Origin: an uncultured Mycoplasmatota bacterium
GTDB taxonomy: Bacteria > Bacillota_I > Bacilli_A > RF39 > UBA660
Assembly (NCBI GenBank): GCA_947646095.1
Contig: CANSFI010000016.1
Location: 1-38,574 of the forward strand
Length of the DNA stretch: 38,574 bases
Reading direction: 5' to 3'
How positions within the stretch are numbered: position 1 is the stretch's first letter; each line of letters begins with the position of its first letter. The position numbers and the translations under genes are program-made. Positions 16,791-32,165 of the stretch are shown piece after piece. The notes under the pieces were generated by a model. That model saw only the letters and a program-made list of their open reading frames with translations. It ran no database searches and was not told the origin of the DNA.

Positions 16791-18416
16791 CTAAGTTATG
16801 ACTCTCAAATACAAAAGACCATTTTTTTCAGCAAAATTATTACTTTCAATCTTGATTATTTTAAAGACATCTTTAAGTACATCAGGAGTTAAGTATTCTC
16901 TTTGATTGTAACCATCAATAACCTCAATATTGTATTTATCACGTAGCACTTCAATATATTGCTCTGCCTTTGCACGACTTTTATAAGTCGTTAGATTAAT
17001 TCTACCATCACATAAAGGTCTATCTAATATATTTTGCTTAAATAAATCTGTAATTTGTTTTAAATAGCGAGGTCTTGCGTTTATTTGTAGTAACTCAATA
17101 GTTTTTTCACCCCTAATTGTACGTTGCTTGAGTTTTATTGTATCAATAAACTCATAAATAAAGTCACATTTTTCTTCATAACTTATCGCTTTCCATATAC
17201 CATCTAAAAAATTATAATTATCAATCTTTTGGTCTATTGCTAAAGTATCAAAAGCATATCTAATTGTATTATCAGTTTTTCCATTCTTTAATTTTTCTAA
17301 CATATCGTCATCAATTGGAATTAAGTTATCATGGGTTATTAAATAAAACTGCAATAGTCCAGACAATTTTTTTATAAGCGTTTCTTCAATTAAATCTTCC
17401 CTAAAACGTGTCTTACAATCTTTACACTTATAGTATAGATACTCTTTGCCATTAGGTTTTTTAGTACCATTACATGCCATAATTCTACCACATTTTGGAC
17501 ACACTAACTTTTGCATAAATAAATATTTTTTATTACGATAATAGTTTCTACTATTTCTTTCAATATTTACCTGACAATCTTCAAATATTTCCTTACTAAT
17601 AATAGGTGGTATATGCCCTGTCTTTTCTTTCCCATTTACCTCTTTATTTTTCTTCTGTGATTCATATACACCATAATAAACCTTATTATTTAATATCGTA
17701 CCAATAGTACAATCACGCCAACTTTTCCGTTTCTTTGTTACTTCTCCGGTATGTTTATCTCTTCTAGTATATGTAACAAAACTATATTTTTCTTCCATTA
17801 TATTGGCTATTTGCTGATATGTTTTTCCTTTTAAACATAAATCAAATATTTCTTTTACAATAGGTGCAGTTTCTTCATCTATTAAATAAAGTTTACTATC
17901 TTTATCTTTCTTATATCCAAAAGGAATTGGTCCACCATAATGTCCTTTGTCTATAGCACCTTCAATTCCAATTTTAGTACGTTGTCTTATTATATCTCTT
18001 TCAAACTGGGCAAAAACACCTAATATATACATTATCATTCTTCCTGTAGGAGTCGTAGTATCAAATTTTTCTAAAACGAATTCAAAACCACAATTATATT
18101 TGTCAGTATCTTTAACAAATTGAACAAAATCACATAAATCTCTAGTCATTCTATCAAGTTTAAGTGCTATAATTTTATTAAACTTTTTTTTCTTCATGTC
18201 TTCCATCATTTGATTAAATGCCTGTCTTTTAGAAGTTTCACTACCACTAAAGCCCTCATCAGAATACACTTTGTATACAGTATATCCAAAAGTTTCACAA
18301 TAATTTCTCATTATTCTTTCCTGTTCATCAAGGCTATGACCATTAGCAACTTGTTCATCGGTAGATACCCTTTTGTAGAGTGCTACTATAATTTTTTTAC
18401 TGCTATCATCAAACAC
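16791..18416 (-). CDS. Large serine recombinase (integrase)
   Basis: This 541-residue site-specific recombinase probably drives integration and excision of the element. The resolvase domain begins IVALYKRVSTDEQ, with catalytic Ser18, and has ALKLDRMTRDLCDF and the GRMIMYILGVFAQFERD helix. A recombinase domain follows (PIPFGYKKD, IVKEIFDLCLKGKTYQQIA), then a zinc ribbon (CPKCGRIMACNG and CKDCKTRF at about 310-340) and a C-terminal DNA-binding region. The start is GTG at 18416, eight bases after GAGGTG. It is the third of three recombinase genes read leftward and is intact. Confidence 0.92.
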   Translation of the reverse strand: MFDDSSKKIIVALYKRVSTDEQVANGHSLDEQERIMRNYCETFGYTVYKVYSDEGFSGSETSKRQAFNQMMEDMKKKKFNKIIALKLDRMTRDLCDFVQFVKDTDKYNCGFEFVLEKFDTTTPTGRMIMYILGVFAQFERDIIRQRTKIGIEGAIDKGHYGGPIPFGYKKDKDSKLYLIDEETAPIVKEIFDLCLKGKTYQQIANIMEEKYSFVTYTRRDKHTGEVTKKRKSWRDCTIGTILNNKVYYGVYESQKKNKEVNGKEKTGHIPPIISKEIFEDCQVNIERNSRNYYRNKKYLFMQKLVCPKCGRIMACNGTKKPNGKEYLYYKCKDCKTRFREDLIEETLIKKLSGLLQFYLITHDNLIPIDDDMLEKLKNGKTDNTIRYAFDTLAIDQKIDNYNFLDGIWKAISYEEKCDFIYEFIDTIKLKQRTIRGEKTIELLQINARPRYLKQITDLFKQNILDRPLCDGRINLTTYKSRAKAEQYIEVLRDKYNIEVIDGYNQREYLTPDVLKDVFKIIKIESNNFAEKNGLLYLRVIT

Positions 18417-18436
18417 AATTTTAACACCTCGATTTC

Positions 18437-18904
18437 TTACTTTTTCTCTTTTTTAAGTTCTTCTCCAAATTCTGCAAAATATTTAATCAAACTAGTAAAC
18501 AATTCCCCAGATGGTTCTGAAGTATCTATCCCATCACGAATACACTCTACATCACAATTATATTTTTCAAATTCTTTTAATAGTTCGTAAAAACCAATCG
18601 CCGTACGATTTAATCTATCCATTTCTGTTACAACCAACTTTGTAAATGCTCCTTTTTTCATATCTTCTAACATTTCTTGAAATGCTGGTCTATTAAGATT
18701 AATTCCACTATACCCATTATCTATATAAGATTTAAAAATTTTATATCCCTTTTTATCACAATGACGCTTTAATAGTTTGTTTCTTTCTTCTATCATTACA
18801 CTATCTTTTTCTGCACTACGATTGTATGTTGCAACTATTACTTTATTTTCTTCCATTTCAATACCCCTTTTTCTGTTAATATCATCTATATTTGACTTTT
18901 TCAT
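18437..18904 (-). CDS. Truncated serine recombinase with altered active site
   Basis: The product of up to 155 residues contains only a resolvase catalytic domain. Compared with the Y-x-R-V-S core of active enzymes it reads VATYNRSAEKDS, so the nucleophile position is Ala and a Ser sits one place earlier. The later VTEMDRLNRTAIGFYELL and LIKYFAEF segments are kept, and it stops before the recombinase and zinc domains. A shorter start (MEENKVIV, at 18856) has a good AAAAAGGGG site; the longer start also has AAAGGA. It may regulate or dimerise with its intact neighbours, or be decaying. Next gene starts 21 bases later. Confidence 0.8.
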   Translation of the reverse strand: MKKSNIDDINRKRGIEMEENKVIVATYNRSAEKDSVMIEERNKLLKRHCDKKGYKIFKSYIDNGYSGINLNRPAFQEMLEDMKKGAFTKLVVTEMDRLNRTAIGFYELLKEFEKYNCDVECIRDGIDTSEPSGELFTSLIKYFAEFGEELKKEKK

Positions 18905-18911
18905 TATTAAA

Positions 18912-19538
18912 TCAGTTCCTTTCTATTTTTTGTTCTTTTAGCAATCTATAAAATTTATTTGGCTTTAGCCCTAATTCTTTTTGAGCCTGTCTTCCAGTTA
19001 TCTCATTATTTTTCCATTTTGCAATAACTGTTGCCCATTCAGTAGGAATAGGAATAGAAGGTCTTCCATAAGGTCTTCCTGTTTTAGTTTTCTTGGTCTT
19101 CAAATATAAATCAATGCCCTCACGTTGTCTAGAACGTATGTAAGTTCTTTCCTGTTCTGCAACATAAGAAAGTAAAGCCAATATAATATCATTAATTACC
19201 TTACCCAGTAAATCTTTATATTTGCTGGTATCTAATATAGGCATATCTAAGACTCGAATATCTGCTTTAATATTCTTGGTGATGTCTCTCCATTCTTCGA
19301 GGATCATATTATAGTTTCTTCCAAGTCTGTCAATGCTTTTAATTACTAAGACGTCATTTTCTCTTAATGCTTTTTTCAAAATTTGGTATTGTTCACGATT
19401 AAAATCTTTCCCACTTTCAAAGTCAGTTAGAATGAAACGTGAGTCAACACCACTTTCAATCAACGCTTGTATTTGCCTATCCTCATTTTGACTAGAACTT
19501 GAACAACGAGCATACCCCCACGTTCTACTATCCACCAT
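18912..19538 (-). CDS. Small serine resolvase/invertase
   Basis: The 208-residue protein has an N-terminal resolvase domain (RTWGYARCSSSSQNEDRQ, with the active Ser in the CSSS run), the conserved VLVIKSIDRLGRNYNMILEEW segment, and a C-terminal Hin-like helix-turn-helix (ITGRQAQKELGLKPNKFYRLL). It matches the resolvase/DNA-invertase size class, acting on short crossover sites. The ATG at 19538 is preceded by AAAGGTGGTG; an extended reading upstream crosses a hairpin and is not used. An inverted repeat 66 bases upstream could be its target or a terminator. Confidence 0.9.
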   Translation of the reverse strand: MVDSRTWGYARCSSSSQNEDRQIQALIESGVDSRFILTDFESGKDFNREQYQILKKALRENDVLVIKSIDRLGRNYNMILEEWRDITKNIKADIRVLDMPILDTSKYKDLLGKVINDIILALLSYVAEQERTYIRSRQREGIDLYLKTKKTKTGRPYGRPSIPIPTEWATVIAKWKNNEITGRQAQKELGLKPNKFYRLLKEQKIERN

Positions 19539-19603
19539 TACACCACCTTTCGTATGAAATAAATTATATATGCCATCTTGCGAATAGGCACTCCCGAAAG
19601 TGG

Positions 19604-19661
19604 TTGAAAAAGTCCTAAAACTTATGAAATATTTCAGAAGTCTGTTATTGGACTTTTTCAA
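19604..19661. repeat. Nested inverted repeat upstream of the resolvase
   Basis: TTGAAAAAGTCC (19604-19615) and GGACTTTTTCAA (19650-19661) are exact complements. Inside lies the palindrome GAAATATTTC (19626-19635). It could be a resolvase crossover site or the terminator of the minus-strand operon that ends at 19740, since its minus strand ends in GGACTTTTTC. Confidence 0.6.
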
Positions 19662-19739
19662 ACATTCAAAACAGGTAATTTTATAGTGTTTCGAAAAGTA
19701 TACTTTGGGAACTACTGCAAAACACGAGTTATATATCTG

Positions 19740-20141
19740 CTATTTGACCTCTACTTTAATACAAATGCTTTCTTCTAGCAGTTCAACTTTATTGAAATCT
19801 CCATAATCATCAATCAAGTTAAATGGGAGATGATATTTTTCTGTTGGAGCATTTTCATAAATCAAATCCATTCCAGCAATAGCAAAATCAGGATTTAAAA
19901 TTTCTTCTTTGATGCAACTCTTAATTTTGGAACCGTCTATGTATAAATCAAAACTATCAAAAGTATAATTTGAAAAGCATTTTATAGTTTTATTATTACA
20001 GCATGATATTATCTTTTGAATACCACTAATCCTAAAACTCTTCAACTCTTCTCCTGATATTTTGAGTATAGGTTCAGGTCCTACACATACACTAAAATGG
20101 TCTCTTAGCCATATTTCCTTTATAATTTTTTGTTGTTCCAT
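19740..20141 (-). CDS. Hypothetical protein of the element
   Basis: The 133-residue protein is predicted to be mostly beta strands and has no signal peptide. Distinct segments are IWLRDHFSVCVGPEPILKIS, GIQKIISCCNNKTIKCFSNY and a C-terminal LLEESICIKVEVK. I do not recognise it. It is the last gene of a three-gene block, starting four bases after the previous stop with an AAGGAG site. The C-terminal SICIKVEVK resembles the end of the preceding protein (SIRIEIQLE), so the two may be distant relatives. Confidence 0.65.
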   Translation of the reverse strand: MEQQKIIKEIWLRDHFSVCVGPEPILKISGEELKSFRISGIQKIISCCNNKTIKCFSNYTFDSFDLYIDGSKIKSCIKEEILNPDFAIAGMDLIYENAPTEKYHLPFNLIDDYGDFNKVELLEESICIKVEVK

Positions 20142-20144
20142 TTT

Positions 20145-20507
20145 TTAATCATCTCCTTCTAATTGAATTTCAATACGTATAGACTCGCTATCACAAGAAA
20201 CTTTTGTCAGTTCCTTAGATTTGTTTATACCGCCTTTATGACACAAGATTTCTTTAGCACCATCATCAAATATTAATTCTATTTGGTAGACACCAAAAAC
20301 AGGTGCTAATATCCTATCTATATCTTTTTGTTCCATTTTTTTAATATCTAATGTCAAATCAAAGTAGCAAAAGGGAATTATTGGAGAACTTTTAAAGTCC
20401 TCCAATATAATATCTCCCTGTGAAAATTTCTGATTATCTCCTATTGTAAGGAAATAATCACAAGTGCAAGTTAATTGCACTTTTATAATCTCCTTACCCT
20501 CGTTCAT
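20145..20507 (-). CDS. Hypothetical protein of the element
   Basis: The 120-residue soluble protein is beta-rich (EIIKVQLTCTCDYFLTIGDN, IIPFCYFDLTLDIKKM, VYQIELIFDDGAKEILCHKG). No family is recognised. The start is the ATG with AAAGGAG seven bases upstream; it overlaps the end of the preceding gene by 14 bases. Translational coupling in a three-gene unit is likely, directly downstream of the leftward promoter of the regulatory switch. Confidence 0.65.
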   Translation of the reverse strand: MNEGKEIIKVQLTCTCDYFLTIGDNQKFSQGDIILEDFKSSPIIPFCYFDLTLDIKKMEQKDIDRILAPVFGVYQIELIFDDGAKEILCHKGGINKSKELTKVSCDSESIRIEIQLEGDD

Positions 20508-21132
20508 ATTTACTCCTTTCTGTGTCAATAATTTTATATCGAACATAATTATTTTCTCTAGTTTGAACTATTTTAACTTTAGTTCCTACTAAATATTGGC
20601 ATTTATCTGCAATATTCTCTGCTGTCTTTGAACCAATACAAGTTGTGTCAACTCTAAAGGCTTTTAACGTCTCTTGAAGACGCTTAAATTCAAAGTAAAG
20701 AAAATTTTTATTTGAAGAAAAAATATACTTCATTTTGATATGTTTTATATCTTCTTCTTCTTTTACGTCTATCAGCCAACACAGTATTGGGTATTTTTCT
20801 TTAGGTGTAAAATCTGTGATTATCTTCCTTACAATACCAAATCTTGGTATATCATCTTGTTCCAACTCATCCTCTACCTGTTCTAGGCTCTCCCACGTTT
20901 CTTCAAACAGTTGATTATCTGGAGACTCTGTACTTTCAAAATTATAATTAGGTACGTCATCTCCAAATATTTGTTTTTGCATATACTCATCTACGTTGAT
21001 ATTTTCAACTTTTTGAGGTATACTTGTATTAGATGGAATTTGAGTAACCCCATCGTCTGATATTGAATTGTTACCCATTAATTCAATATCTTTTTTTTGT
21101 TCTTCAACATGATTTTCCATATTATCAAACAT
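20494..21132 (-). CDS. Acidic protein resembling phage single-strand-DNA-binding (DUF669-like) proteins
   Basis: The 212-residue protein has an acidic, disordered N-terminal half (residues 1-105, many Asn/Glu/Asp) and a folded C-terminal part from FGIVRKIITDF to the end. That part has the strand order of DUF669-type proteins: KYPILCWLIDV, IKMKYIFSSNKNFLYFEFKR, an LQETLKAF helix, and VGTKVKIVQTRENNYVRYKI. In phages and integrative elements such proteins bind single-stranded DNA near recombination or replication genes. AAAGGAGG precedes the ATG at 21132. First gene after the leftward switch promoter. The family call is tentative. Confidence 0.55.
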   Translation of the reverse strand: MFDNMENHVEEQKKDIELMGNNSISDDGVTQIPSNTSIPQKVENINVDEYMQKQIFGDDVPNYNFESTESPDNQLFEETWESLEQVEDELEQDDIPRFGIVRKIITDFTPKEKYPILCWLIDVKEEEDIKHIKMKYIFSSNKNFLYFEFKRLQETLKAFRVDTTCIGSKTAENIADKCQYLVGTKVKIVQTRENNYVRYKIIDTERSKYERG

Positions 21133-21222
21133 GTTTTTTCCTCCTTTTCTTTTATTTTTAACCCCCTGATACAATACAGTACCCATTATTCTTTCATTTT
21201 CTTTAATCATCTCCTTTTTCAT

Positions 21223-21251
21223 TTGCACAAATGTATTGAATGTGATATAAT
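21223..21251 (+). promoter_or_regulatory. Rightward promoter toward the XRE repressor
   Basis: TTGCAC, a 17-base spacer and TATAAT (21246-21251). It points to the repressor gene with a leader of about 165 bases and faces the leftward promoter at 21336-21364. Confidence 0.6.
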
Positions 21252-21260
21252 GTTTTTATA

Positions 21261-21287
21261 ACGAAAGAAAAATATATCTACTTTCGT
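21261..21287. promoter_or_regulatory. Candidate operator
   Basis: ACGAAAG (21261-21267) and CTTTCGT (21281-21287) form an inverted repeat between two facing promoters. Repeated CACAAA/TTTGTG words flank it. Confidence 0.5.
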
Positions 21288-21335
21288 AACGAATTTTATT
21301 CACAAATCAACGTTCTAATATGTGCTTGTGTACTA

Positions 21336-21364
21336 ATATTAGCATAGTAGAAAACAAGTGTCAA
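21336..21364 (-). promoter_or_regulatory. Strong leftward promoter of the element
   Basis: On the minus strand TTGACA (21364-21359), a 17-base spacer and TAATAT (21341-21336). It would drive the DUF669-like gene block and possibly the recombinases. Confidence 0.75.
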
Positions 21365-21423
21365 TACTTTTGTGATTAAAAACAATATTTTTTTCACAAT
21401 ACGTTCGAGAGAGAGGGAAAATA

Positions 21424-21993
21424 ATGGAAAATGCCGATAAAAATGTGATTTTTGCTCAAAGATTAAATATTGAGTTGGATAAGTTAAAAATAACGCAAGG
21501 AGAATTTTGTAAAAAAGTAGATATTTCTACAGGAGCCTTATTTAACTATAAGACTGGTAAAAGACTTCCTGATATTGATAACTTAATTAAACTAGCAGAA
21601 GAGTTTAACTGTTCTACAGATTATTTACTGGGTCTTATAGACATAAAAAGTACTAATGATGATTACCAATTCATTCATAAACTTACTGGCTTATCAGATA
21701 AAGCTATAGAATATCTTAATAACTGTTATAATGAGACTACCAATCAAGAAGCAACTAGTACTAGCATTAAAACAATAAATTATCTTATAGAAAACGAGGA
21801 TAAATACCATCTAATCAAAAATCTTAATGATTTTATATGGCTCGGAAATTCAAAATATAATCAACAAGTAGATATAGAACAAGCAGTAGCCAAAGTCAAA
21901 ATAGATAAAGCCTTATTTAATATGGATAACGACATAAGAACATTTAATCTTTTAGAAGAAACACAAAAGGAAAAGAACAACGAGCAAAATTAA
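21424..21993 (+). CDS. XRE-family repressor of the element
   Basis: The 189-residue protein has an N-terminal helix-turn-helix (FAQRLNIELDKLKITQGEFC, GALFNYKTGKRLPDIDNLIK, CSTDYLLGL) and a helical C-terminal region of about 110 residues beginning YQFIHKLTGLSDKAIEYLN. This is the layout of phage- and ICE-type repressors. GAGAGGGAAA precedes the ATG. It is the main plus-strand gene in the element, divergent from the recombinase-side operon, and a terminator follows. Likely binds the inverted repeats in the 195-base region upstream. Confidence 0.85.
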   Translation: MENADKNVIFAQRLNIELDKLKITQGEFCKKVDISTGALFNYKTGKRLPDIDNLIKLAEEFNCSTDYLLGLIDIKSTNDDYQFIHKLTGLSDKAIEYLNNCYNETTNQEATSTSIKTINYLIENEDKYHLIKNLNDFIWLGNSKYNQQVDIEQAVAKVKIDKALFNMDNDIRTFNLLEETQKEKNNEQN

Positions 21994-22013
21994 AAAGCCA
22001 CACTAGGCTTTTT
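21992..22013. terminator. Bidirectional terminator
   Basis: AAAAAGCC-ACACTA-GGCTTTTTT between the repressor and the convergent minus-strand gene. Confidence 0.85.
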
Positions 22014-22408
22014 TATTTTTCTTCTAACCAATTGACAACAACTAAAACATTAACATTGTACTTATCCTCAAACTTCTTTAATGTATCTTTAACATAATGT
22101 AACCTCTTATTTTGAATAAAAAAATCTCGTCTTTTTGTCATCTTCAAAAAATCAATGAATACATAATCAGGCTTGTATTGAAGTATATACTTTTCTAATT
22201 CTTCAAGAGTAACAGAGGTATCATGTATAACAGTAACATTCTCTCTATTTAAAATTTCATATTTATTTAATAGGAACTGTTTAGAATAAAAGTAACTAAA
22301 ATATAAAATATGCTCATGATCCTGCACTCTATTTATGCAATCAACTAAGTATGACGTAATATTTTCTTTTTGTTCATTCTTTAAAAAAGAGATTTCGCTT
22401 TTCATCAT
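22013..22408 (-). CDS. DnaB-like RecA-fold fragment without Walker A
   Basis: The 131-residue protein matches the second half of DnaB-type ATPase domains: ILYFSYFYSKQFLLNKYEIL, then a Walker-B-like strand DYVFIDFLKMTKRRDF, then a helix VKDTLKKFEDKYNVNVLVVV in the position where DnaB has the LK-lA-kel-vPV strand. No P-loop (GxxxxGKS/T) is present. It could be a regulatory or decoy relative of the helicases encoded further right. RBS AGGTGG precedes the ATG. The match is by pattern only. Confidence 0.5.
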   Translation of the reverse strand: MMKSEISFLKNEQKENITSYLVDCINRVQDHEHILYFSYFYSKQFLLNKYEILNRENVTVIHDTSVTLEELEKYILQYKPDYVFIDFLKMTKRRDFFIQNKRLHYVKDTLKKFEDKYNVNVLVVVNWLEEK

Positions 22409-22442
22409 AGATTACCACCTACATTAATTATAAAGTAGAAAG

Positions 22443-22475
22443 CAAAAAATAACACTCATATAAACGAATGTTATT
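22443..22475 (-). terminator. Terminator after the DUF2958 gene
   Basis: On the minus strand AATAACATTC and GAGTGTTATT pair with one mismatch, followed by TTTTTT. Confidence 0.65.
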
Positions 22476-22483
22476 ACTAGTAT

Positions 22484-22810
22484 TTAATCGATTTTATATT
22501 TTGCTTGTAATTCTTCTAATGAAATAGGGATACTGTGGTGGATATATTGAATATCATATTTTAAACTGTGTAATTCATTAAAACTAACGTATCCAAACTC
22601 TGCCTCTAAGATTTTACAATAGCCAAAGAAAGTAAAGTCATCTTCTTCTTTATTTCCCTCTAAAAGTAACCAATACATATTTTGATTAGGGATAAAAACT
22701 TCGAGTATTACTTTTTTATCCTTTTTATTGTCTTGTGAATAAAGAGGATAATCTTTAAAAATATTACTTAATATGTCGGCATTTAACCATTTAATACTAT
22801 TGCTCATCAT
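22484..22810 (-). CDS. DUF2958 family protein
   Basis: The 108-residue protein carries the DUF2958 pattern: KVILEVFIPNQNMYWLLLEG, then DFTFFGYCKILEAEFGYVSF and NELHSL. DUF2958 proteins are common on plasmids, phages and conjugative elements of Bacillota; their biochemical role is not established. The start is the ATG-ATG pair after GAGG, overlapping the end of the upstream gene by 14 bases, so the two are probably co-translated. Confidence 0.75.
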   Translation of the reverse strand: MMSNSIKWLNADILSNIFKDYPLYSQDNKKDKKVILEVFIPNQNMYWLLLEGNKEEDDFTFFGYCKILEAEFGYVSFNELHSLKYDIQYIHHSIPISLEELQAKYKID

Positions 22811-23237
22811 CTGTAACCTCATATTCAAAAGTTGGTCTTATTTGCTCTTCAATAGGGTTGTTAAGAATTTCCTTTAAAAGATTTCTTTCATTTAGAGGTC
22901 TTATTTTATAAGTAATTATTTTTCTCATAGCACTTTGACACCTAGGATAATGCTTAAAATAAAATTTTAAAACAAAAATCAAATCATCTATATAGTAATG
23001 TTTTCCTTTATAACGAAGAAAGTCTTGTAATTCCTTATTTAATTTTTTAGTATCAAACCTATACAAGAAAATATTCATTTTTAAAAACGCATAATATAAA
23101 TCGAAATACTTATCAAGTAATTTGATGAGTAGGTCTTTGTCGATTACTCTTTCAGTGCTATAAATCTCATTGTACCTTAAATAATCTTCATCATTATGCA
23201 AATCATCTACCAATTTAATTACTGGGCTTATTCTCAT
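22797..23237 (-). CDS. Hypothetical protein of the element
   Basis: The 146-residue protein is mainly helical, rich in Leu, Lys and Tyr (LLDKYFDLYYAFLKMNIFLY, LKFYFKHYPRC) with an acidic C-terminus. I recognise no family. AAAGGAG lies at good spacing before the ATG, and the 3' end overlaps the DUF2958 gene. Confidence 0.65.
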   Translation of the reverse strand: MRISPVIKLVDDLHNDEDYLRYNEIYSTERVIDKDLLIKLLDKYFDLYYAFLKMNIFLYRFDTKKLNKELQDFLRYKGKHYYIDDLIFVLKFYFKHYPRCQSAMRKIITYKIRPLNERNLLKEILNNPIEEQIRPTFEYEVTDDEQ

Positions 23238-23310
23238 TTTTTAACTCCTTTCCCATAATCTGTTAATATTTTAATATCCGTTTATAAAAAAATCCCGCCT
23301 CTAAAAGAAA

Positions 23311-23340
23311 AAAGAACACATTTCTAATCTTTGTGTTCTT
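23311..23340 (-). terminator. Terminator after the ASCH-RsgI-like gene
   Basis: AAGAACACA and TGTGTTCTT stem with T-rich minus-strand tail (A-rich at 23303-23313). Confidence 0.75.
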
Positions 23341-23369
23341 ATATAAAATTGTCTTTTCATTACTTTATA

Positions 23370-24671
23370 TTAGTTTTGATATTCATTAGCCACAGACTCC
23401 CAACTTGTAATATGAATTAGACTACTTGTTGGATTAATTAGATTTAATTTTCTAAGAGGTAAAAATCTTGTATATTCTTCATCTTCGGAAAGTGGTAACT
23501 CTAACACCTGATTTTCTTGTTTATTAATCACTTCAACACCATCAACAGTTGCAGCAAAACCCTGGCCTTCACTAAGTATAAAATGTGTGTTTCCTATAAA
23601 AACATTCCAGTCATTTTGGTTCATTATAAGGTCATAGGCATTCTTATAATCATGTTTAATATTAAACTTATTAAATGTATTTGCAATTCGATTAAGTCTT
23701 ACTTCATAAGTAGCAATATCAGTTTTATTTGGGTCAGTTATAATCGAATCCATAATAAAATAACATTCTAATTCATTATTATTCATACTGCAAGAATACA
23801 CTTTACCGTAATCATTATCTTTTTTCAATTTATCCCATAAACTAGAGTAGTAATCATCATTGCTATTCTTTTTTATACCTTCATTGTTTTTTACATTAGA
23901 TAATAATTTGTCTTTCGTCTCTTGGTTAATAAATTCTATTGTTATGTAATCTCTATCTTCTATATTTAAATCAATAGTAGTTTTTATTTTTACACCGTTA
24001 GAAGTATCAAAGCCTTTATTTTTAACTAGGTTATACAAGTTATCAACACTTTCACTAATTGTCCTATTTTTAATATCAATATCATCATATATACTTACAC
24101 AATCATCATTTAAACAAGATACATTATTTACTTTATTATCCTTAATAGAAAGTACAAAAGATGGGTTAATCTCGATAAACACATAATCAGTTCTTTCTTT
24201 AGCAAGTTCATTTATAGTATTATTTATTTTTTTAGTGTTCATTTCATCTAGTTTATTTCTAACAAAACAATAACTTAAGAACAACAACACAAGGATCAAT
24301 ACACCTAGTAAAATTTTTCTAAATATATGTTTTTTAGGTTTTAACTCGATACCTAAAATACCATATTTCTTAATATCTTCTTTCTTATATTCCTTTACTA
24401 AATCCTCATAATTTGGAGTATATTTTTTCTTATATCCTAGTTGTTCTTTTTTCACGTTGCTAACTAAATCTTCTAAAGTAGGATAGGTATGTGTTTCTTT
24501 TACTGCTTTCTTAAATCTATCTACTTTACCTTGAATAACAACTTTTTCTTTACTTTTTATTTTAGTGTATTCTTCATCATTTAAACGAATAATAAGCGTT
24601 TGCTTTCCTTTTTTAATTTTTCTAAATTCTTCTTTAGATACCTTAATTTTATGTACTACATTTTTACTCAC
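23370..24671 (-). CDS. Membrane protein joining an ASCH domain to an RsgI-like outer domain
   Basis: The 433-residue protein has three parts. Residues 5-111 follow the ASCH pattern (EEFRKIKKGKQTLIIRLNDE, TKIKSKEKVVIQG, THTYPTLEDLV, EYKKEDIKKYGILGIEL), a PUA-like fold that binds RNA or nucleotides. One membrane helix lies at about 117-137. Outside, residues 160-235 resemble the RsgI anti-sigma-factor domain (YVFIEINPSFVLSIKDNKVN, ISESVDNLYNLVKNKGF), and a further 200 residues (235-433) are unassigned, with DWNVFIGNTHF near the end. The start is GTG with AAGGAAG upstream. The chain would link an extracytoplasmic signal to an intracellular nucleic-acid-binding domain. I know of no described protein with this order. 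Confidence 0.75.
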   Translation of the reverse strand: MSKNVVHKIKVSKEEFRKIKKGKQTLIIRLNDEEYTKIKSKEKVVIQGKVDRFKKAVKETHTYPTLEDLVSNVKKEQLGYKKKYTPNYEDLVKEYKKEDIKKYGILGIELKPKKHIFRKILLGVLILVLLFLSYCFVRNKLDEMNTKKINNTINELAKERTDYVFIEINPSFVLSIKDNKVNNVSCLNDDCVSIYDDIDIKNRTISESVDNLYNLVKNKGFDTSNGVKIKTTIDLNIEDRDYITIEFINQETKDKLLSNVKNNEGIKKNSNDDYYSSLWDKLKKDNDYGKVYSCSMNNNELECYFIMDSIITDPNKTDIATYEVRLNRIANTFNKFNIKHDYKNAYDLIMNQNDWNVFIGNTHFILSEGQGFAATVDGVEVINKQENQVLELPLSEDEEYTRFLPLRKLNLINPTSSLIHITSWESVANEYQN

Positions 24672-24705
24672 TCACAACCACTTCCTTACATATAATTATA
24701 CATTA

Positions 24706-25749
24706 TTATTTTAAATTTATATAGTTTGGAATTTCTAAACTTTCACTAACTTTATTATCATAATTTATATTCCACATATCTTTTATAAACTCATAATTAG
24801 TACCTGCATATTTAGTTTTTCTAAATGGTGTTTCTAATAATTTCTGTAAATCTTCTTTCTGTTCTTTATTTAGTTTATCATTTCTATTAAGAGAATGATT
24901 AAAATATTCTGCTTCATCAATTTTAATACAAGCATTAAATTTTTTTCCTTTTGTTTCTTCATCAACAAAATGAAAATGTGGATAACTTTCATAATCTCCT
25001 ACATAAAGATAAATGCTATAACCATTAATACTATCAATTAACCAAGACTCTGTTTCCCAACTATTTAAGTAATCGTGAATATCTTTGATATCCATATCAT
25101 TTCTTTCTGTATATTCTTTTAAAAAATCATAATGTCTTTTAATGAAATCTTGAACTCTTTTAAATTCTTCTTTAGATATTCCTAGTTGAACGTCATATAC
25201 AAGTTTAGGGTTCTCTTTATCAATGCTTACAGTTACATAATCTTCAAATCTTTTATTGTGTTGATGGGTGTTTTGCATAAGTAAAGTATATAAATCTCTT
25301 TCATCATCATACTCATTAACGTCACAATATAGAAATAAATCAACTGGAAGACTAGGATAATCTCTAGCACTTATCCCATTTACGAAGAAACCGTCAATTA
25401 CAGTAGGTTTAAATCTATTAATATCCGTATGTTCCATAATAGAGTAGTCAAAACCAACACCGTTTACTGTATCAATCAATATTTGATACTTTTCTTTAAT
25501 AAAATTTAGTACTTTCTTAAAATCTTTTTCTTTAACATTTAATTTTACTTCTTCTAATAATTTAGGTTTATACTTATCAATACTAATAGGAATTAAATCA
25601 TCTCCAGTAGTATATTTATTATAGTTATTTTGCATATAAATTATTTCTTGTTTATCATTATATTTTAACCATAATGTAATAGGTAGATTAGTGTTAGGGT
25701 AAATCTTACTTCCTTTTTGAACTAATATAATCATTGGTGTAAATTCCAT
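24706..25749 (-). CDS. Element protein with internal repeats and DUF4160-like C-terminus
   Basis: The 347-residue protein contains two related units. Each runs from a strand (LPITLWLKYN; LPVDLFLYCD) through IPISIDKYKPKLLEEVKLNV or VTVSIDKENPKLVYDVQLGI to a helix FKKVLNFIKEKYQIL or FKRVQDFIKRHYDFL, about 105 residues apart. The C-terminal 110 residues (YSIYLYVGDYESYPHFHF, FNACIKIDEAEYF, YEFIKDMWNIN) resemble DUF4160-type proteins, small proteins sometimes paired with antitoxin-like partners. Its ATG lies three bases after the CHC2 zinc-finger ORF, so it is in the same transcript. Function unknown. Confidence 0.6.
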   Translation of the reverse strand: MEFTPMIILVQKGSKIYPNTNLPITLWLKYNDKQEIIYMQNNYNKYTTGDDLIPISIDKYKPKLLEEVKLNVKEKDFKKVLNFIKEKYQILIDTVNGVGFDYSIMEHTDINRFKPTVIDGFFVNGISARDYPSLPVDLFLYCDVNEYDDERDLYTLLMQNTHQHNKRFEDYVTVSIDKENPKLVYDVQLGISKEEFKRVQDFIKRHYDFLKEYTERNDMDIKDIHDYLNSWETESWLIDSINGYSIYLYVGDYESYPHFHFVDEETKGKKFNACIKIDEAEYFNHSLNRNDKLNKEQKEDLQKLLETPFRKTKYAGTNYEFIKDMWNINYDNKVSESLEIPNYINLK

Positions 25750-25752
25750 AAG

Positions 25753-25986
25753 CTAATCACTTCCCAAAAATTTTTCCACTTTTTCATTTGTTTTAACTCT
25801 TTCATAATTCTTCGCAAAAGTTATTACATTACCAGTTGCACCACAACCAAAACATTTATAAATCTGTTTTTTTTGTGAAACAGATAAAATAGGTTTGCTA
25901 TCTTTATGAAAGGGACATATACCAAAATAATTTTTACCTCGTTTTTCTAGTGGTATATAATTTCTAATTACATCAACTATATCAAT
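25753..25986 (-). CDS. DnaG-type CHC2 zinc finger, overlapping the helicase in the -1 frame
   Basis: The 77-residue frame reads IDIVDVIRNYIPLEKRGKNY, then FGICPFHKDSKP, then KQIYKCFGCGATGNVITF. This is the N-terminal zinc-binding domain of bacterial primase (C-P-F-H, C-x-x-C ligands all present). No TOPRIM catalytic domain follows. It begins inside the last codons of the helicase gene, with no ATG, GTG or TTG in frame; an ATT at 25986 is the only candidate. The helicase frame passes through ATA AAA AAA GTA, where a -1 shift on A AAA AAA would enter this frame. Either a fusion protein by slippage, a single-base error in the A run, or an unusual start could explain it. Confidence 0.8.
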   Translation of the reverse strand: MDIVDVIRNYIPLEKRGKNYFGICPFHKDSKPILSVSQKKQIYKCFGCGATGNVITFAKNYERVKTNEKVEKFLGSD

Positions 25987-27188
25987 ACTTTTTTTATTTC
26001 TTCTATTTTATCATTTATCTTTTTCTCACATATTGTTTTTAATTTATTAAATGCAAACTCTAAATCTTCATGCTTATTAAAATATTCTCTAAAATCATAA
26101 AAAAAGTGAATAAAAAATCCTATTGAAACACCATATATTCCAAATGAATTTGCTATGAAAAGTCTGTCTATTGATGTTAACTCGATTGAAAGACATATCG
26201 CCATTTCCCTAGCCTCACTAACTCTATTAACATTTATCTTATTCTTCTCAAGTTTTTTAATACGCATTTTAAGATATTCGCTAGGTATATTATAATAATT
26301 CGCAACTTCTTCTTTAATTATATCTAAAATTTGTTTCTTACATTTTATATCAAGAACTCTTAATTCAGCAGTACACCCTTTTACATAACCTGTTTTTAAA
26401 CTACTTCCTTGTTTATAAGTTAGAGTATCTTTATTAAATAACAATTTTACTGTTCCAGTAGAACCACCAGTATTCTTAGCAACTATTAATTCAATGTCAT
26501 TCAAGTCATAATTAATGTTATAGTAATTCTCTCTATACAAGAATATAACTTTATCCATTTTTTGCATTATTCTTCCGTCATTATCAGTTAATTTATCTTC
26601 TCGCTCTTTTGTATTAGGTACTTTTATATTAGATAAATGCGTATCTACTATATCGGCTTTTTGCGTTATTTCTACGATTTTTTTTAAATCTGTTAAGATA
26701 GGTCTTTTATCTTCTCTTTCCTCTAAATCTCGAGATAATTGTGATAATACTATAACAGGAATATTTAATTTTATTGCCATTTTCTTTAGTTGCTGATATA
26801 CATAACATATCTCATCTATCCATCTATAACCTTTCTCATATCTTCGCCCATCATACTTATTACCAAACACAAGCTGAATACAGTCTATTATCACTAATGA
26901 AAGACTTGATGTCTCTTCACATATTCTTCTCATATCTTCTATTGAAAAACTGCAATCCTCTATAATCTCCACGTTTTTACCTGTCATTATCCATTTTAAA
27001 ATATTTTTACACTTGTCGAATGTAAAGAATAGTATTTTACTATTAGTCTGCGTAGATAAATTATTTACAATGTTATGAGCTAGTGTACTTTTACCCATAG
27101 AAGATCTTCCAGCAATAGTAATTAATTCTCCACCATTTAAACCGCCTATAATATTATCTAAATTTTCATAACCTGTTTTTAAATTCAT
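25977..27188 (-). CDS. DnaB-type ATPase fused to a DnaA domain IV-like DNA-binding region
   Basis: The 403-residue protein has two parts. Residues 1-255 form a DnaB-like RecA ATPase: Walker A GRSSMGKST at 27-35, Walker B LVIIDCIQLV at 98-107, VIVLSQLSRD at 146-154 and NTGGSTGTVKLLF at 239-251. There is no DnaB N-terminal domain. Residues about 286-392 match DnaA domain IV: ILDIIKEEVANYYNIPSEYL, VSEAREMAICLSIELT, IANSFG and a closing helix DLEFAFNKLKTICE. The DnaA signature GRDHTT is not conserved, so DNA specificity would differ. The CHC2 frame follows by -1 shift. Probable helicase/initiator of the element. Confidence 0.75.
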   Translation of the reverse strand: MNLKTGYENLDNIIGGLNGGELITIAGRSSMGKSTLAHNIVNNLSTQTNSKILFFTFDKCKNILKWIMTGKNVEIIEDCSFSIEDMRRICEETSSLSLVIIDCIQLVFGNKYDGRRYEKGYRWIDEICYVYQQLKKMAIKLNIPVIVLSQLSRDLEEREDKRPILTDLKKIVEITQKADIVDTHLSNIKVPNTKEREDKLTDNDGRIMQKMDKVIFLYRENYYNINYDLNDIELIVAKNTGGSTGTVKLLFNKDTLTYKQGSSLKTGYVKGCTAELRVLDIKCKKQILDIIKEEVANYYNIPSEYLKMRIKKLEKNKINVNRVSEAREMAICLSIELTSIDRLFIANSFGIYGVSIGFFIHFFYDFREYFNKHEDLEFAFNKLKTICEKKINDKIEEIKKVLI

Positions 27189-27221
27189 TTTAATTACTTC
27201 CTTTCAATCACTAATTATATA

Positions 27222-27355
27222 AAATTCACCAACCCAACCATTAATGCTAAGGTTCTACCATTTTCCCATTTCATATGTATTTGTCCCTCATCATTAAAGT
27301 ATAATTTCAAATACTTAAATTTATTAAAATCTTTCTCAATTATGTATATTTTCAT
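27222..27355 (-). CDS. Short ORF between helicase units, possibly frameshifted
   Basis: ATG at 27355 opens a 44-codon frame (MKIYIIEKDFNKFKYLKLYF onward). A shift near 27256 would continue as INGWVGEFYIISD, which reads more like protein than the actual ending, so it may be a broken 50-residue gene. AGTGGTTAG upstream belongs to the decayed CHC2 copy. Confidence 0.4.
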
Positions 27356-27358
27356 AAA

Positions 27359-27590
27359 CTAACCACTCCCAAAATATTTATCTACTTTTTCATTAAATTC
27401 AATTATGCCATAATTATTCACAAAATCTATTACATTGCCACTTGCACCACAACTAAAACATTATAAATTTGTTTTTCTTGTGAAATAGATAAAGTAGATT
27501 CGTTACCTTTATGAAAAGGATATATGCCAAATAATTTTTATCTTTTTTTATGAGATATAGTTACCTTGTATAATGTAATCTGTTATTTCT
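27359..27590 (-). pseudogene. Decayed second copy of the CHC2 zinc finger
   Basis: The sequence mirrors the intact CHC2 frame at 25753-25986 but is broken. It reads NYIS then a stop, then GIYPFHKGNESTLSISQEKQ and, after a missing base, CFSCGASGNVIDFVNNYG and NEKVDKYFGSG. The first zinc Cys is replaced by Tyr (IYPFH for ICPFH). Its position after a helicase-like gene repeats the order of the intact unit, so a helicase-CHC2 block was duplicated and this copy lost. Confidence 0.75.
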
Positions 27591-27592
27591 TT

Positions 27593-27778
27593 TTAATGTT
27601 TATACTTTTTTACTTTAACGTAAACACTATCATATTCCTTTTTCTCTAAATAACCAAGTTTTTGCATATCATCATAAGTAGGAATTTTATTTATATCTCC
27701 CCCTGATTTATTAATCATATAATTTGTTATATCTTTAAAAAACTTCTCCAAACTTTCCTCTGGTGTTAATTCTCTCAT
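27593..27778 (-). CDS. Small hypothetical protein
   Basis: The 61-residue product (MRELTPEESLEKFFKDITNY..., then IPTYDDMQKLGYLEKKEYD) is charged and probably helical. AAAGAG precedes the ATG. No family is recognised; it sits between a truncated helicase copy and the decayed zinc finger. Confidence 0.5.
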   Translation of the reverse strand: MRELTPEESLEKFFKDITNYMINKSGGDINKIPTYDDMQKLGYLEKKEYDSVYVKVKKYKH

Positions 27779-27817
27779 ATCAATAATCTCTTTCTAAATA
27801 TATTTAATTTTTCTTAA

Positions 27818-28462
27818 TTATGGAATAACCACTACTACAATATTTTTTACTGTATTTACTATTTTCATTCTGTAATCTTTATTCAAGGATGACTTATTAT
27901 TTTTATTTAAATAACTATCCCTATATAAAAATATAGTTCTATCACTATCTTGTAGTAATGAGATACTTTCTGTTAATTTCAAATGAGAAAAATCTTGATT
28001 TTCGTAGTTGGTCATATCTCTTGTTAATTGAGATAAGACTAATATAGGAACATTTAAATCTGTTGCTATACTTTTAAAAATTTGTGTAATATATTCACGC
28101 TCTTCTAATCTACTACCATTAAAAGATGAAGTATAAATAAGTTGCACATAATCTACTACTATTAAAGATAAATCTGTAGTCGATTCACATTTATTTTTAA
28201 TTTCCTCAATCGTTGTTCTAGGAGTATCTATAATCTCTATATTATCACTTGTTATTCTCTCGTTTAACAAGTCTTTTGGTGTTTCTAGGTTAAAGTATAG
28301 TATCTTATCTTTTGACTGTTTAAACGCATTATTTATTATGTTTAAAGCAAGAGTACTTTTTCCTACACCTGGTCGACTTGCTAAAGTATATAATTTTCCA
28401 TTTTCTAAACCACCTATAACTTTATCTAATTCTTCATATCCTGTTTTTAACATATAAATCAC
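27818..28462 (-). CDS. Truncated second copy of the DnaB-type ATPase
   Basis: The 214-residue frame is closely related to the first 240 residues of the larger helicase (LKTGYEELDKVIGGLENGKL; Walker A SRPGVGKSTLALNI; Walker B LSLIVVDYVQLI; VLSQLTRD; TIFLYRD). It ends KNIVVVVIP just where the intact copy reads KNTGGSTGTV. Shifting frame at that point gives SSGYSIIKKN before a stop, so a single-base loss probably truncated it; the DnaA-like part is gone. It may still fold and bind ATP. Lies directly after the PolC-like gene. Confidence 0.75.
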   Translation of the reverse strand: MIYMLKTGYEELDKVIGGLENGKLYTLASRPGVGKSTLALNIINNAFKQSKDKILYFNLETPKDLLNERITSDNIEIIDTPRTTIEEIKNKCESTTDLSLIVVDYVQLIYTSSFNGSRLEEREYITQIFKSIATDLNVPILVLSQLTRDMTNYENQDFSHLKLTESISLLQDSDRTIFLYRDSYLNKNNKSSLNKDYRMKIVNTVKNIVVVVIP

Positions 28463-28470
28463 TTCTTTCT

Positions 28471-29526
28471 TTAATTACATTCAATATAATTTTCTTTATC
28501 TAAAACGAATAAACACTCACTAACTGCTTGACCTCTACCAAATATAAACTCAATTTTAGAGAAAATATCTATAAAAATATCTTCGCAATTATGTTCTTTC
28601 ATAATTTTTACATATTTATCCCACAAATTTGGATAATTATTCCATTTATTCCTATATATGTAATTTAAGATTTCTAAAGCCATTTCTTTATCAATAGAAT
28701 GGTCTAAAAGATATTCTAAAATATCTTCACGAGTTGCTATTAAATTATTGATATTTATTTTTTCCTCTTTTACTAAATATTCTTGATTGTTTCTCCATAC
28801 ACTAGTACCATGTCCTACACTTTTTACTTTTATGTAATCACTTATTGTTTTAGGTTTTAATATACTAGCAATATCTTTTTCAAAATCAATATTTAAAACA
28901 TTTTCTATATCAACTTTATCATAATCAAATAGGTAATATTTTTCCCCAAATCTAACCGAAATATAATCATTAGTAAAATTTCCATAATTTTCAACTGTTT
29001 CAAAAATATTATTAATATTTAATCTAAAAGTAATATCTTTTTTTTCTTCATATAAAGTAGGTATAAATAAATAATGATTTTCTTCAAGTTGATTTCTTTC
29101 TTCAATCTCACATTTTTCATATGAACCTGCTACTATTCTTAATTTATCATAATAATTTTTTGATATAAAATCAACTAAACTAACAACATCAATACCAATT
29201 AAATCAACATTTATAGTTCTGTCTGTAATCAATTCATATGGTAAATTATATTCTAGGGGATTTACCTTACTTAAACCTAAAACATATAGTAATAATGAAT
29301 TATTAATCATACCTCTAAAATGATAATAAATGTTTTTGTTTTCTTTCTTAAACTTATGTAGAATTTCAATAATGAATAAATAACCTTTCTCATCAAATAA
29401 GTTTATTTCATTATGGCATCTTTTTAAAATTGCTTCTTCATTATATTTCTCGTAATATATTTTATCTAATTCATCAATTAAATAATCTTTTGCACTTAAA
29501 TTTAAATCTTCGTATTTATCCAACAT
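28471..29526 (-). CDS. PolC-derived fingers/palm remnant lacking catalytic DxD
   Basis: The 351-residue protein follows the polymerase core of PolC (Gram-positive replicative DNA polymerase III) in a shortened form. Residues 47-98 (GYLFIIEILHKF, RGMINNSLLLYVLGLSKVNP) correspond to the PolC stretch GFAVIYLISHKL...RGSVGSSFVAT...EVNPL. Residues 104-111 (TINVDLIG) take the place of PDIDLNFSG, so the first catalytic Asp is Asn. Residues 227-272 (TISDYIKVKSVGHGTSVW, ATREDILEYLL) match SGLSHGTDVW and CRDDIMVYLI, and SKIEFIFGRGQAV at 323-335 matches KKIKYMFPKAHAAA. Exonuclease, PHP and downstream parts are missing. Polymerisation is unlikely; a replisome-binding role is inferred. Confidence 0.72.
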   Translation of the reverse strand: MLDKYEDLNLSAKDYLIDELDKIYYEKYNEEAILKRCHNEINLFDEKGYLFIIEILHKFKKENKNIYYHFRGMINNSLLLYVLGLSKVNPLEYNLPYELITDRTINVDLIGIDVVSLVDFISKNYYDKLRIVAGSYEKCEIEERNQLEENHYLFIPTLYEEKKDITFRLNINNIFETVENYGNFTNDYISVRFGEKYYLFDYDKVDIENVLNIDFEKDIASILKPKTISDYIKVKSVGHGTSVWRNNQEYLVKEEKININNLIATREDILEYLLDHSIDKEMALEILNYIYRNKWNNYPNLWDKYVKIMKEHNCEDIFIDIFSKIEFIFGRGQAVSECLFVLDKENYIECN

Positions 29527-29541
29527 TCCTACTCATACTCC

Positions 29542-29952
29542 TTATTCTATTTTCTGTATTGCTCTAACCAATAATAATTTATTTTTTAACATTTCTTTCT
29601 TTATTTTCTTATCATCTTTTACTAATTCTAGAAGTCCTTCATATACAAAATCTATATCTGTTGTAATATTACCATTTATTCTATATTTTTCTTGTAAACG
29701 AATACTTTTAAATAGATTTCCAGTTTCAATAGTATTATTACCAACTACCAAAGCACTTATATTTTCTGTATCATCTCTTATACTAAGGATCATGAATATA
29801 GTATCTTCAAATTCATAAATATTCCTATTATCGATAATTACTTCAAAAGTAACATTTTTATCCTTATCTACGACATTTTCTATTTTCGAGATACGAGTAT
29901 TACTTGGAATATCAGTCTTAATATTTTTATATTTTACTTTACTTTTTATCAT
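29542..29952 (-). CDS. OB-fold protein resembling the PolC OB domain
   Basis: The 136-residue protein is strand-rich. The central segment VTFEVIIDNRNIYEFEDTIF, MILSIRDDTENISALVVG, then FKSIRLQEKYRINGNI and FVYEGLLELV matches the order of the OB domain near the N-terminus of PolC (TLLTFKITDYTNSILVKMF, VKKGMWVKVRGS). It is immediately upstream of the PolC-fingers-like gene (15 bases), so the pair looks like a split miniature PolC without exonuclease. An OB fold alone is common, so the PolC origin is inferred from neighbourhood and motif order. It is probably a DNA-binding partner. Confidence 0.5.
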   Translation of the reverse strand: MIKSKVKYKNIKTDIPSNTRISKIENVVDKDKNVTFEVIIDNRNIYEFEDTIFMILSIRDDTENISALVVGNNTIETGNLFKSIRLQEKYRINGNITTDIDFVYEGLLELVKDDKKIKKEMLKNKLLLVRAIQKIE

Positions 29953-29999
29953 TCATAATCACCCACAATAATTATTAAGTTTTTACCCTGACTCAACAA

Positions 30000-30893
30000 C
30001 TAACTATTAAGTAAATTTATCATTGTTTTAAAATCTCTAGCAGACTTCTGTATAATAGGTGTGTCATGTTTTTCTGCATTAACTATATCTTGGCATTGGT
30101 CTATTACTCTTTGCCATGCATCTATAGGATACTCGGTACATTCACTAGTTCCACCTGAGTTTAAATATTGAATACAATATTTTGCATTTTCAATACTTTT
30201 CTGATGTTTCGCACTTTCTTTTTGAGCCTCTTCTACCATACTAATTTTAAGAACTCCTGCGTAATCATTATATACATTTGGAATATTTAAACCAGAATAT
30301 ACGTCATATATACAACCACCTGGTACTGCTTTACACATATAATTCTTTAAAATATCTTGTTTAATTTCTCTTGAAAGAGAGTTTATTAAACCTGTATTTA
30401 TTCTAGGAGAGATTAAATCATTGCTCCAATAACGAGGTGTAGTTCTATTAAAACCAATAACCTCATTATTTCCATAATAAACAGCATTTCCTTTTATACT
30501 AAGAGTAGGTGTAGGTGTTGAAGTAGGTTGATTGTTTTCTGTTTTATTATTTTCTACCTTATTACTGTTTTCTGTTTTATTACTATTATTTTTCTTAGGT
30601 TGTTCCTTTGATTGATTTTTATCTTCTTTATTACTTTTATTATCATTAACTGATTCTTTATTTTCTTCAACAGGTTTCTCTTCTTTTTCATCTAGTTGTT
30701 CTTCATCTTCATTTATTTTTTCTTCCTCTTTACTTGGGACTTTTTCTTGTTTTTCTTCAACCTTTACATTATCTTTCATATTATTAACTATAATTGGTGT
30801 TGCTACTGCACCACTAACTACAACTGTACCAATTACAATTGAGGCTACTATATGGGTTTTAATCCATGCTCCTATTCCTATTAAAATATTCAT
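30000..30893 (-). CDS. Membrane-anchored exported protein with charged spacer
   Basis: The 297-residue protein has an N-terminal helix (IVASIVIGTVVVSGAVATPI), a long low-complexity Lys/Glu/Asn/Ser spacer (about 40-130), a PTSTPTPT linker and a folded C-terminal part of about 160 residues with four Cys (CKAVPGGC, YCIQYL, SECTEYP, DQCQDI). Orientation suggests the spacer and Cys domain lie outside the cell. No family recognised; it could be a surface or exclusion protein of the element. AGAAGTGA precedes the ATG. Confidence 0.65.
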   Translation of the reverse strand: MNILIGIGAWIKTHIVASIVIGTVVVSGAVATPIIVNNMKDNVKVEEKQEKVPSKEEEKINEDEEQLDEKEEKPVEENKESVNDNKSNKEDKNQSKEQPKKNNSNKTENSNKVENNKTENNQPTSTPTPTLSIKGNAVYYGNNEVIGFNRTTPRYWSNDLISPRINTGLINSLSREIKQDILKNYMCKAVPGGCIYDVYSGLNIPNVYNDYAGVLKISMVEEAQKESAKHQKSIENAKYCIQYLNSGGTSECTEYPIDAWQRVIDQCQDIVNAEKHDTPIIQKSARDFKTMINLLNS

Positions 30894-30962
30894 TTTTAAA
30901 TCACTTCTTTCTTTCTATAATTATAATCTAAAAAATAGATAAGCACACTGGCTAAAAACCAG

Positions 30963-31589
30963 TTACTTATCTATTTCATTTATTAGGTACATAAAAGTTC
31001 CTGATTTTTCATTATTTAAATTACTATATTCTTTCCAATTCATAGTATAAGTTCCTTTTAATGTGATAGGTTCTTCAAAACCATTTTTTGGAGTTTCCCT
31101 TTTCCAATTTAAAGTACCTGTTTTTACTGAATTTTCGTGAACAGAAAACTCCATATACTGAGAGTCTTCTCTTGGTTTATTCATATAAGATAAATCATTA
31201 GTTAAAAACACCGTATAACCTTTTTTAAACAATGGCTCGTTATCTCTAAAATCTTCTATTCTTTTAATATCTTTTACAGCACGATAGCAGTTTTCATTCT
31301 GAGCATTATCACTAGGCAAATCATATTCTATATTATCTACAATACCTTTAAATGATTTCCTTTTATATTTCAACTCAATAGGATAATACTCATTATCCAT
31401 AACTACAACAATATCTATTCCTTTTTTAGTATTAAAAGGTGCTGGATATTCTACTTTAACTCGAACATTATCATACATATCCTGTATAGTATCAACTAAC
31501 TCCTGTCTAAAATCATTCTCATCACGAAATATTTTCTTTCTTTTCCTTAACTCATCTAAAACCAAATATACATTGAAACCTATATCCAC
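30963..31589 (-). CDS. PD-(D/E)XK-type nuclease-like protein
   Basis: The 208-residue protein has the restriction-endonuclease-like core. An N-terminal helix with Glu30 (FRQELVDTI), a strand VRVKVEYPAP, then GIDIVVV (Asp59) and YPIELKYK (Glu72-x-Lys74) form the typical D...ExK active site. The C-terminal half is unassigned. Such proteins are usually DNA nucleases or resolvase-like enzymes, sometimes in defence. The start is GTG with AAGGAG upstream, downstream of a strong leftward promoter and a leader hairpin. It is first in the long operon that includes the PolC-like and helicase genes. Confidence 0.7.
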   Translation of the reverse strand: MDIGFNVYLVLDELRKRKKIFRDENDFRQELVDTIQDMYDNVRVKVEYPAPFNTKKGIDIVVVMDNEYYPIELKYKRKSFKGIVDNIEYDLPSDNAQNENCYRAVKDIKRIEDFRDNEPLFKKGYTVFLTNDLSYMNKPREDSQYMEFSVHENSVKTGTLNWKRETPKNGFEEPITLKGTYTMNWKEYSNLNNEKSGTFMYLINEIDK

Positions 31590-31634
31590 TTTTAAATCAA
31601 CTCCTTACTTTAAATCATAAAATAGTTACCATAC

Positions 31635-31655
31635 AAGCACGTCGCTAACGTGCTT
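31635..31655. promoter_or_regulatory. Leader hairpin
   Basis: AAGCACGT-CGCTA-ACGTGCTT, an 8-bp perfect stem in the 5' leader of the leftward transcript. On the plus strand it is followed by TT only; it could be an operator or mRNA structure. Confidence 0.6.
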
Positions 31656-31664
31656 TTCACACTA

Positions 31665-31694
31665 ATTATACCCTGAAAATGATATAATTGTCAA
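31665..31694 (-). promoter_or_regulatory. Leftward promoter of the replication/nuclease operon
   Basis: Minus strand TTGACA (31694-31689), an 18-base spacer and TATAAT (31670-31665). A plus-strand TATAAT at 31683-31688 abuts its -35, suggesting that the divergent XRE promoter competes. Three ATTTAC words lie at 31697-31723. Confidence 0.75.
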
Positions 31695-31741
31695 CGAATT
31701 TACAGTCAATAATTTACGATATTTACGGAGGTGTATAGGAC

Positions 31742-31954: not shown

Positions 31955-31991
31955 TTATCTCTTTTTCTTTATTAAAATCACTCCATATAGT

Positions 31992-32111: not shown

Positions 32112-32165
32112 ATCACTCATAAAAAAAATTAGAAAATCAGTATATTTCTAACTTTTCACTTATTT

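Follow-up and report, generated by a model that had tools for sequence, protein, structure and literature searches.

A gene on the reverse strand at 23370..24671 of the window, our term for the whole 38,574-nucleotide stretch analysed, encodes a 433-residue single-pass membrane protein made up, from the N-terminus, of an ASCH-derived domain, a membrane helix, an RsgI_M/SEAL domain and a variable C-terminus. The occurrence of an ASCH-derived domain and an RsgI_M/SEAL domain on one membrane protein is a confirmed observation, and the protein is best read as a variant SEAL-domain membrane protein and not as an RsgI. The sequence-only reading of this gene, an ASCH domain tethered to an RsgI-like sensor that couples an outside signal to RNA or nucleotide binding, was partly supported.

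Domain structure of the 433-residue protein

The open reading frame is intact, with 433 uninterrupted codons from a GTG start preceded by the stretch AAGGAAGTGG. Ahead of the membrane helix the reading frame has just one further ATG, GTG or TTG codon, GTG73, which lies within the ASCH-derived domain, and an internal start bypassing the ASCH part was therefore rejected. An assembly artefact or chance fusion was also rejected, since the search of other genomes proposed in the sequence-only reading recovered this architecture from two of them (L068, L069) and, from seven or more others, a diverged form. A promoter and terminator scan around the gene gave nothing above chance, and a hairpin was seen by eye 3' of it. 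The AF2 model of the protein, built from 17 sequences, contains a beta-alpha-beta barrel at residues 6-110 and then a long helix at 115-157, the first part of which is the membrane span (residues about 115-137; 24261..24329, reverse strand). A Lys-rich stretch lies before this span, and the N-terminus is predicted to be inside by the positive-inside rule, with a net charge of +15 ahead of the helix.

The cytoplasmic domain, residues 1-112 (24336..24671, reverse strand), was assigned from profiles and predicted structure. PHROG 19935, named 'RNA-binding protein', matched residues 5-111 with positions 3-112 of its 116 (E 9.3e-7). A model aligned from 30 stand-alone ASCH proteins of the same bacterial family, about 115 residues each, found the N-terminus at 66.7 bits (model positions 2-111), L032/L068 at 30.9 bits and L069 at 19.9 bits; the best protein outside the ASCH family among the ORFs searched reached about 13 bits. 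Comparison of the N-terminus with ASCH by hhalign gave a probability of 98.7 over 103 columns. Pfam ASCH (PF04266) did not reach the 433-residue protein, whose signature residues have changed; it was passed by both stand-alone relatives scanned (35-37 bits, cut-off 21.2), and PHROG 19935 by the one scanned. In Foldseek, the whole AF2 model had its best PDB matches in PH0355 and PF0455 (2z0t, 1s04), with E 5.4e-5 and a TM of 0.77 of the target for 2z0t, identifying a PUA-like barrel fold; among BFVD models it also matched viral proteins named as ASCH. Block pLDDT in this domain was mostly 66-84, with one loop at 51-63. Together, these profile and fold matches indicate that the N-terminal domain is ASCH-derived, as first proposed, and no match to the RsgI_N anti-sigma domain (PF12791) was found in the protein up to E 10.

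The conserved ASCH motif is GxKxxxxR (PMC5615036). The corresponding position reads GKQTLIIR in the 433-residue protein, with Lys changed to Gln, the conserved Glu to Ile, and Arg kept. In stand-alone ASCH proteins the Lys, Glu and Arg of G-x-K-T-I-E-L-R and the Lys-Arg after it are invariant (30/30); the 433-residue protein has Gln, Ile, Arg and then Glu-Tyr, and the signature positions are Gln, Ile and Lys in L068 and Gln, Val and Gln in L069. The signature Lys and Glu are thus changed in all three ASCH-bearing forms, and Arg is kept only in the protein studied here. In YqfB, Lys, Thr and Glu are catalytic (PMC9599836); of the two compared here, Lys and Thr, the motif Lys is replaced by Gln and Thr is present. 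The domain has thus lost the usual ASCH signature yet retains the fold. Its net charge is +15, where stand-alone ASCH proteins average -2, and eight fused domains range from +7 to +16. The dN/dS of the cytoplasmic domain was 0.23 for L045/L046, 0.32 for L068/L069 and 0.54 for L082/L083; the first two values indicate that it is kept and not decaying freely, and, judged from these ratios, purifying selection on the domain in relatives is shown. In fold, length and sequence pattern, residues 1-112 resemble stand-alone ASCH proteins (PF04266, PHROG 19935; 2z0t, 1s04; E. coli YqfB; ZmASCH), and they differ in being membrane-tethered and strongly basic, with the signature Lys and Glu replaced. Among other ASCH proteins, L022, L024 and L026 continue at the C-terminus into sequence resembling a Nudix hydrolase (GHVDNDESDMECLHRELSEEAG), and L028 has two ASCH-like domains in tandem.

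The RsgI_M/SEAL domain, residues about 161-306 (23754..24191, reverse strand), was supported by Pfam, an alignment of relatives, AF2 and Foldseek. Pfam RsgI_M scored 32.6 bits over residues 162-258 (cut-off 25.3; E 1.4e-7), and the AF2 prediction was confident, with pLDDT about 91 over most of the domain. Foldseek matched the model to the B. subtilis RsgI ectodomain (8t9n; probability 1.00, E 0.012) and to the periplasmic domains of C. thermocellum RsgI2 and RsgI6 (8hdj, 8her); 8t9n and PDB ASCH proteins were matched separately within one search of the 433-residue model, and the model of a relative, L083, matched 8t9n at E 3.8e-4. These results bear out the earlier claim of one helix followed by an RsgI-like outer domain with the motif EINPSFVLSI, which is present. 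Pro170 is invariant and Asn169 occurs in 19 of 20 relatives in the alignment. In the family profile, Pro170 falls on the residue with which chain B of 8her begins, this being the autocleaved C-terminal chain of RsgI6; Asn169-Pro170 (24162..24167, reverse strand) thus aligns with the RsgI site and is a predicted autocleavage site. From this alignment, and as the primary paper reportedly describes, we take the RsgI_M cut to fall at Asn-Pro. Two Cys pairs are conserved in the domain (C186/C191 and C294/C303). The remaining outside region, residues 307-433 (23373..23753, reverse strand), is highly variable among relatives by alignment and unevenly predicted by AF2; no known domain was found there in Pfam, and no known outside ligand-binding domain was found in the 433-residue protein.

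Like B. subtilis RsgI and C. thermocellum RsgI1-9, the protein is N-in and single-pass, with an RsgI_M/SEAL outer domain, Asn-Pro and a variable C-terminus. Unlike them, it carries an ASCH-derived domain inside, has no RsgI_N and no SigI in the genome, and has no carbohydrate-binding module (no Pfam domain in 307-433). Since RsgI8 and B. subtilis RsgI also do without a polysaccharide-binding C-terminal domain, the last difference is not decisive. Bacterial SEAL-domain proteins, reportedly described by Brogan and colleagues in a 2023 PNAS study that PMC12203970 cites, are said to have a self-cleaving SEA-like outer domain by the membrane helix. The protein shares this outer domain beside the membrane helix, predicted to be self-cleaving here, and differs in its ASCH-type cytoplasmic domain, which we did not find described for such proteins in the part of the literature covered. 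That partial coverage, of ASCH with anti-sigma factors, membranes, SEAL or RsgI, held no description of the pairing; it agrees with the earlier claim that no such architecture is described and is weak evidence for novelty. The ASCH and RsgI_M pairing is recurrent and apparently undescribed.

Relatives, domain exchange and genomic setting

Relatives of the protein differ in their cytoplasmic part. Besides the ASCH-derived form (the 433-residue protein, L068 and L069), a diverged ASCH-like form of about 95 residues was found (L042/L086, L087, L045, L046/L084, L047, L082, L083 and L085), with a profile similarity of 94.7 to the ASCH-bearing forms and only 21 to stand-alone ASCH. The L083 model has the strand-helix order of ASCH and weakly matched the ASCH protein 3iuw (probability 0.89, E 0.21). 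L049 is one shortened form. Most other relatives have a short Lys-rich cytoplasmic tail, including the closest (about 60% identical), which have just ~20 Lys-rich residues inside, and close relatives in syntenic elements carry this Lys-tail form. On the outer-domain tree, the three form labels required four changes. Comparison of the region with the sister element L033 showed that DNA similarity runs over the upstream gene as far as 24698 and restarts at 24283 within the membrane helix; the ASCH-coding stretch between is unmatched in L033. Between L068 and L069, the inner domain has 0.48 synonymous differences per site and the middle part 0.20 (p 0.0002); this pair, alone in doing so clearly, suggests that the inner domain was exchanged by recombination. 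The cytoplasmic part is thus shown to be swappable, and the ASCH-derived domain would be an accessory output module, since SEAL proteins lacking it are found as well. A separate ASCH gene substituting in the sister elements was rejected: the listed ASCH-model matches do not include the additional 156-aa gene (family F39) that those elements carry. At L032 3838-6539, ASCH-bearing and Lys-tail forms are adjacent in one genome.

In four overlapping genome samples, of 386 (family), 385 (order), 395 (class) and 392 (phylum), a cytoplasmic ASCH-like domain on RsgI_M was seen only in the bacterial family of the host; such proteins also occur on named contigs of uncultured gut Bacilli. Other RsgI_M matches at class level mostly start with a short N-terminus that is hydrophobic and often lipobox-like, and they retain DINPS, as judged by eye. 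RsgI_M also occurs on lipoprotein-like proteins of several Bacilli families (L112-L137), which share the DINPS-type motif with the 433-residue protein and differ from it in their usually short or lipoprotein-like N-terminus, with no cytoplasmic domain.

The gene lies in a mobile-element-like block (16791..34261) that encodes three serine recombinases, two DnaB-like ATPases, a Pol III alpha-like fragment and an HTH protein, and is syntenic with L033 and L034 of other genomes. The ends of the block are approximate, a direct-repeat search for att sites giving only tRNA-like similarity. The upstream neighbour (24706..25749, reverse strand), which has a DUF4160 C-terminal part, lies 34 nt from the GTG start and is 86% identical in DNA in the sister element L033. 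L035 and L036, from two genera and another element type, have shared stretches that are 97% identical and include the short-tailed form. This sharing and the L033/L034 synteny indicate that the gene family travels. The co-occurrence with mobile elements raised in the sequence-only reading is clear in this window; it is not general, as the ASCH-bearing L069 lies among ordinary chromosomal genes, just ahead of a D-Ala-D-Ala carboxypeptidase gene and two spmA/spmB-like genes. None of the viral contigs searched encodes a relative of the protein.

Several other features of the block were noted. The serine recombinase genes adjoin one another at 16791-19661 (541, 155 and 249 aa), and similar sets lie near relatives in L034 and L039. 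The product of 28471-29526 (351 aa) weakly matches a DNA polymerase III alpha NTPase domain (E 1.1e-7) and is possibly a remnant or a divergent replication protein. A 327-aa protein at 32983-33966, without a Pfam match, contains GWHLHVLIV, reminiscent of HUH replication initiators. Two pairs of direct repeats lie between element genes, at 25744-25873 and 27350-27479 (130 nt, 76%) and at 31992-32111 and 32509-32628 (120 nt, 87%).

Possible functions of the inner domain

The host is a small-genome gut bacterium (1.38 Mb, 95% complete), in which the 433-residue protein is the only RsgI_M protein. RsgI_N was not found anywhere in the genome, the best genome-wide SigI match (TIGR02895) reached 37.8 bits against a cut-off of 185, and no sigma gene was found in the window, as the sequence-only reading had noted. 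The genome has eleven sigma-70 region 2 matches and one strong match to an RseP-type M50 site-2 protease (234.5 bits); the helix region of the protein shows no XAA-type ClpXP tag. Two adjoining sigma-70 paralogues elsewhere in this genome (L054/L055, G000:C17:21740-22911) have almost identical central stretches.

RsgI acts through autocleavage, RseP and then ClpXP (PMC12203970). The position of Asn169-Pro170 at the RsgI site and the presence of an RseP-type protease make signalling by regulated proteolysis possible. We tentatively favour, as plausible rather than probable, a model in which the ASCH-derived domain, standing where RsgI has its anti-sigma domain, is released from this SEAL-domain (RsgI_M) membrane protein by regulated proteolysis. 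The outer domain would cut itself at Asn169-Pro170, its halves staying joined non-covalently; a pull on, or disturbance of, the variable outer region would expose the stub to the RseP-type protease, whose cut would free the basic ASCH-fold domain. Freed or tethered, this domain would contact a partner by its surface, whether nucleic acid, RNA polymerase or another protein. Given the lost ligand-pocket signature and the strongly positive charge, such contact is a likelier mode of action than amidohydrolase activity or the reading of modified bases.

What speaks most against a central signalling role is the absence of the inner domain from close relatives. It is possible, though we doubt it, that the protein works only outside, as a surface receptor, adhesin or barrier, with the cytoplasmic domain a positively charged anchor or stop that passes no signal. 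The ~20 Lys-rich residues inside the closest relatives and the loss of the ASCH signature would fit this, as would the mostly lipoprotein-like or short-tailed RsgI_M proteins beyond the host family, which retain Asn-Pro where the N-terminal side was read; the motif alone does not imply transmembrane signalling. However, a folded domain of ~100 residues under purifying selection exceeds the needs of an anchor, and the ASCH-like form recurs in two clades. The proposed coupling of an outside signal was not upheld, given the lack of a known ligand-binding domain and of a folded cytoplasmic domain in close relatives.

That the ASCH-derived barrel is a disguised anti-sigma factor, binding one of the sigma factors of the genome as the RsgI barrel binds SigI, is unlikely. 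The topology is that of RsgI, whose N-terminal domain is also beta-barrel-like (PMC12203970), and the 1.38 Mb genome has eleven sigma-70 region 2 matches, but SigI, RsgI_N and a sigma gene in the window were not found and the domain is of ASCH origin by sequence. Still less credible is that the domain still binds RNA or a nucleotide, with an outside signal drawing it to the membrane or setting it free: ASCH and PUA folds generally bind nucleic acids (PMC7641849, PMC5615036), the domain is strongly basic and the L083 model too has the ASCH-like strand-helix order, but the signature Lys and Glu are changed in all three ASCH-bearing forms and basic charge is also expected beside a membrane helix. 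With these residues lost in a strongly basic domain, the RNA or nucleotide binding first suggested was not established.

Returning to release by proteolysis, a bolder form of it, which we think improbable, is a class of regulated-proteolysis receptors, carried and reshuffled by mobile elements, whose released cytoplasmic fragment would be an effector of ASCH fold that binds RNA or nucleoprotein, in place of an anti-sigma factor. More generally, the pairing would mark the RsgI outer domain as a general module that evolution combines with varied cytoplasmic outputs, in bacteria lacking SigI. The presence of the ASCH part in some syntenic elements and its absence from others amount to a natural swap experiment, and since DNA similarity restarts within the membrane helix, the role of the inside domain is directly testable.
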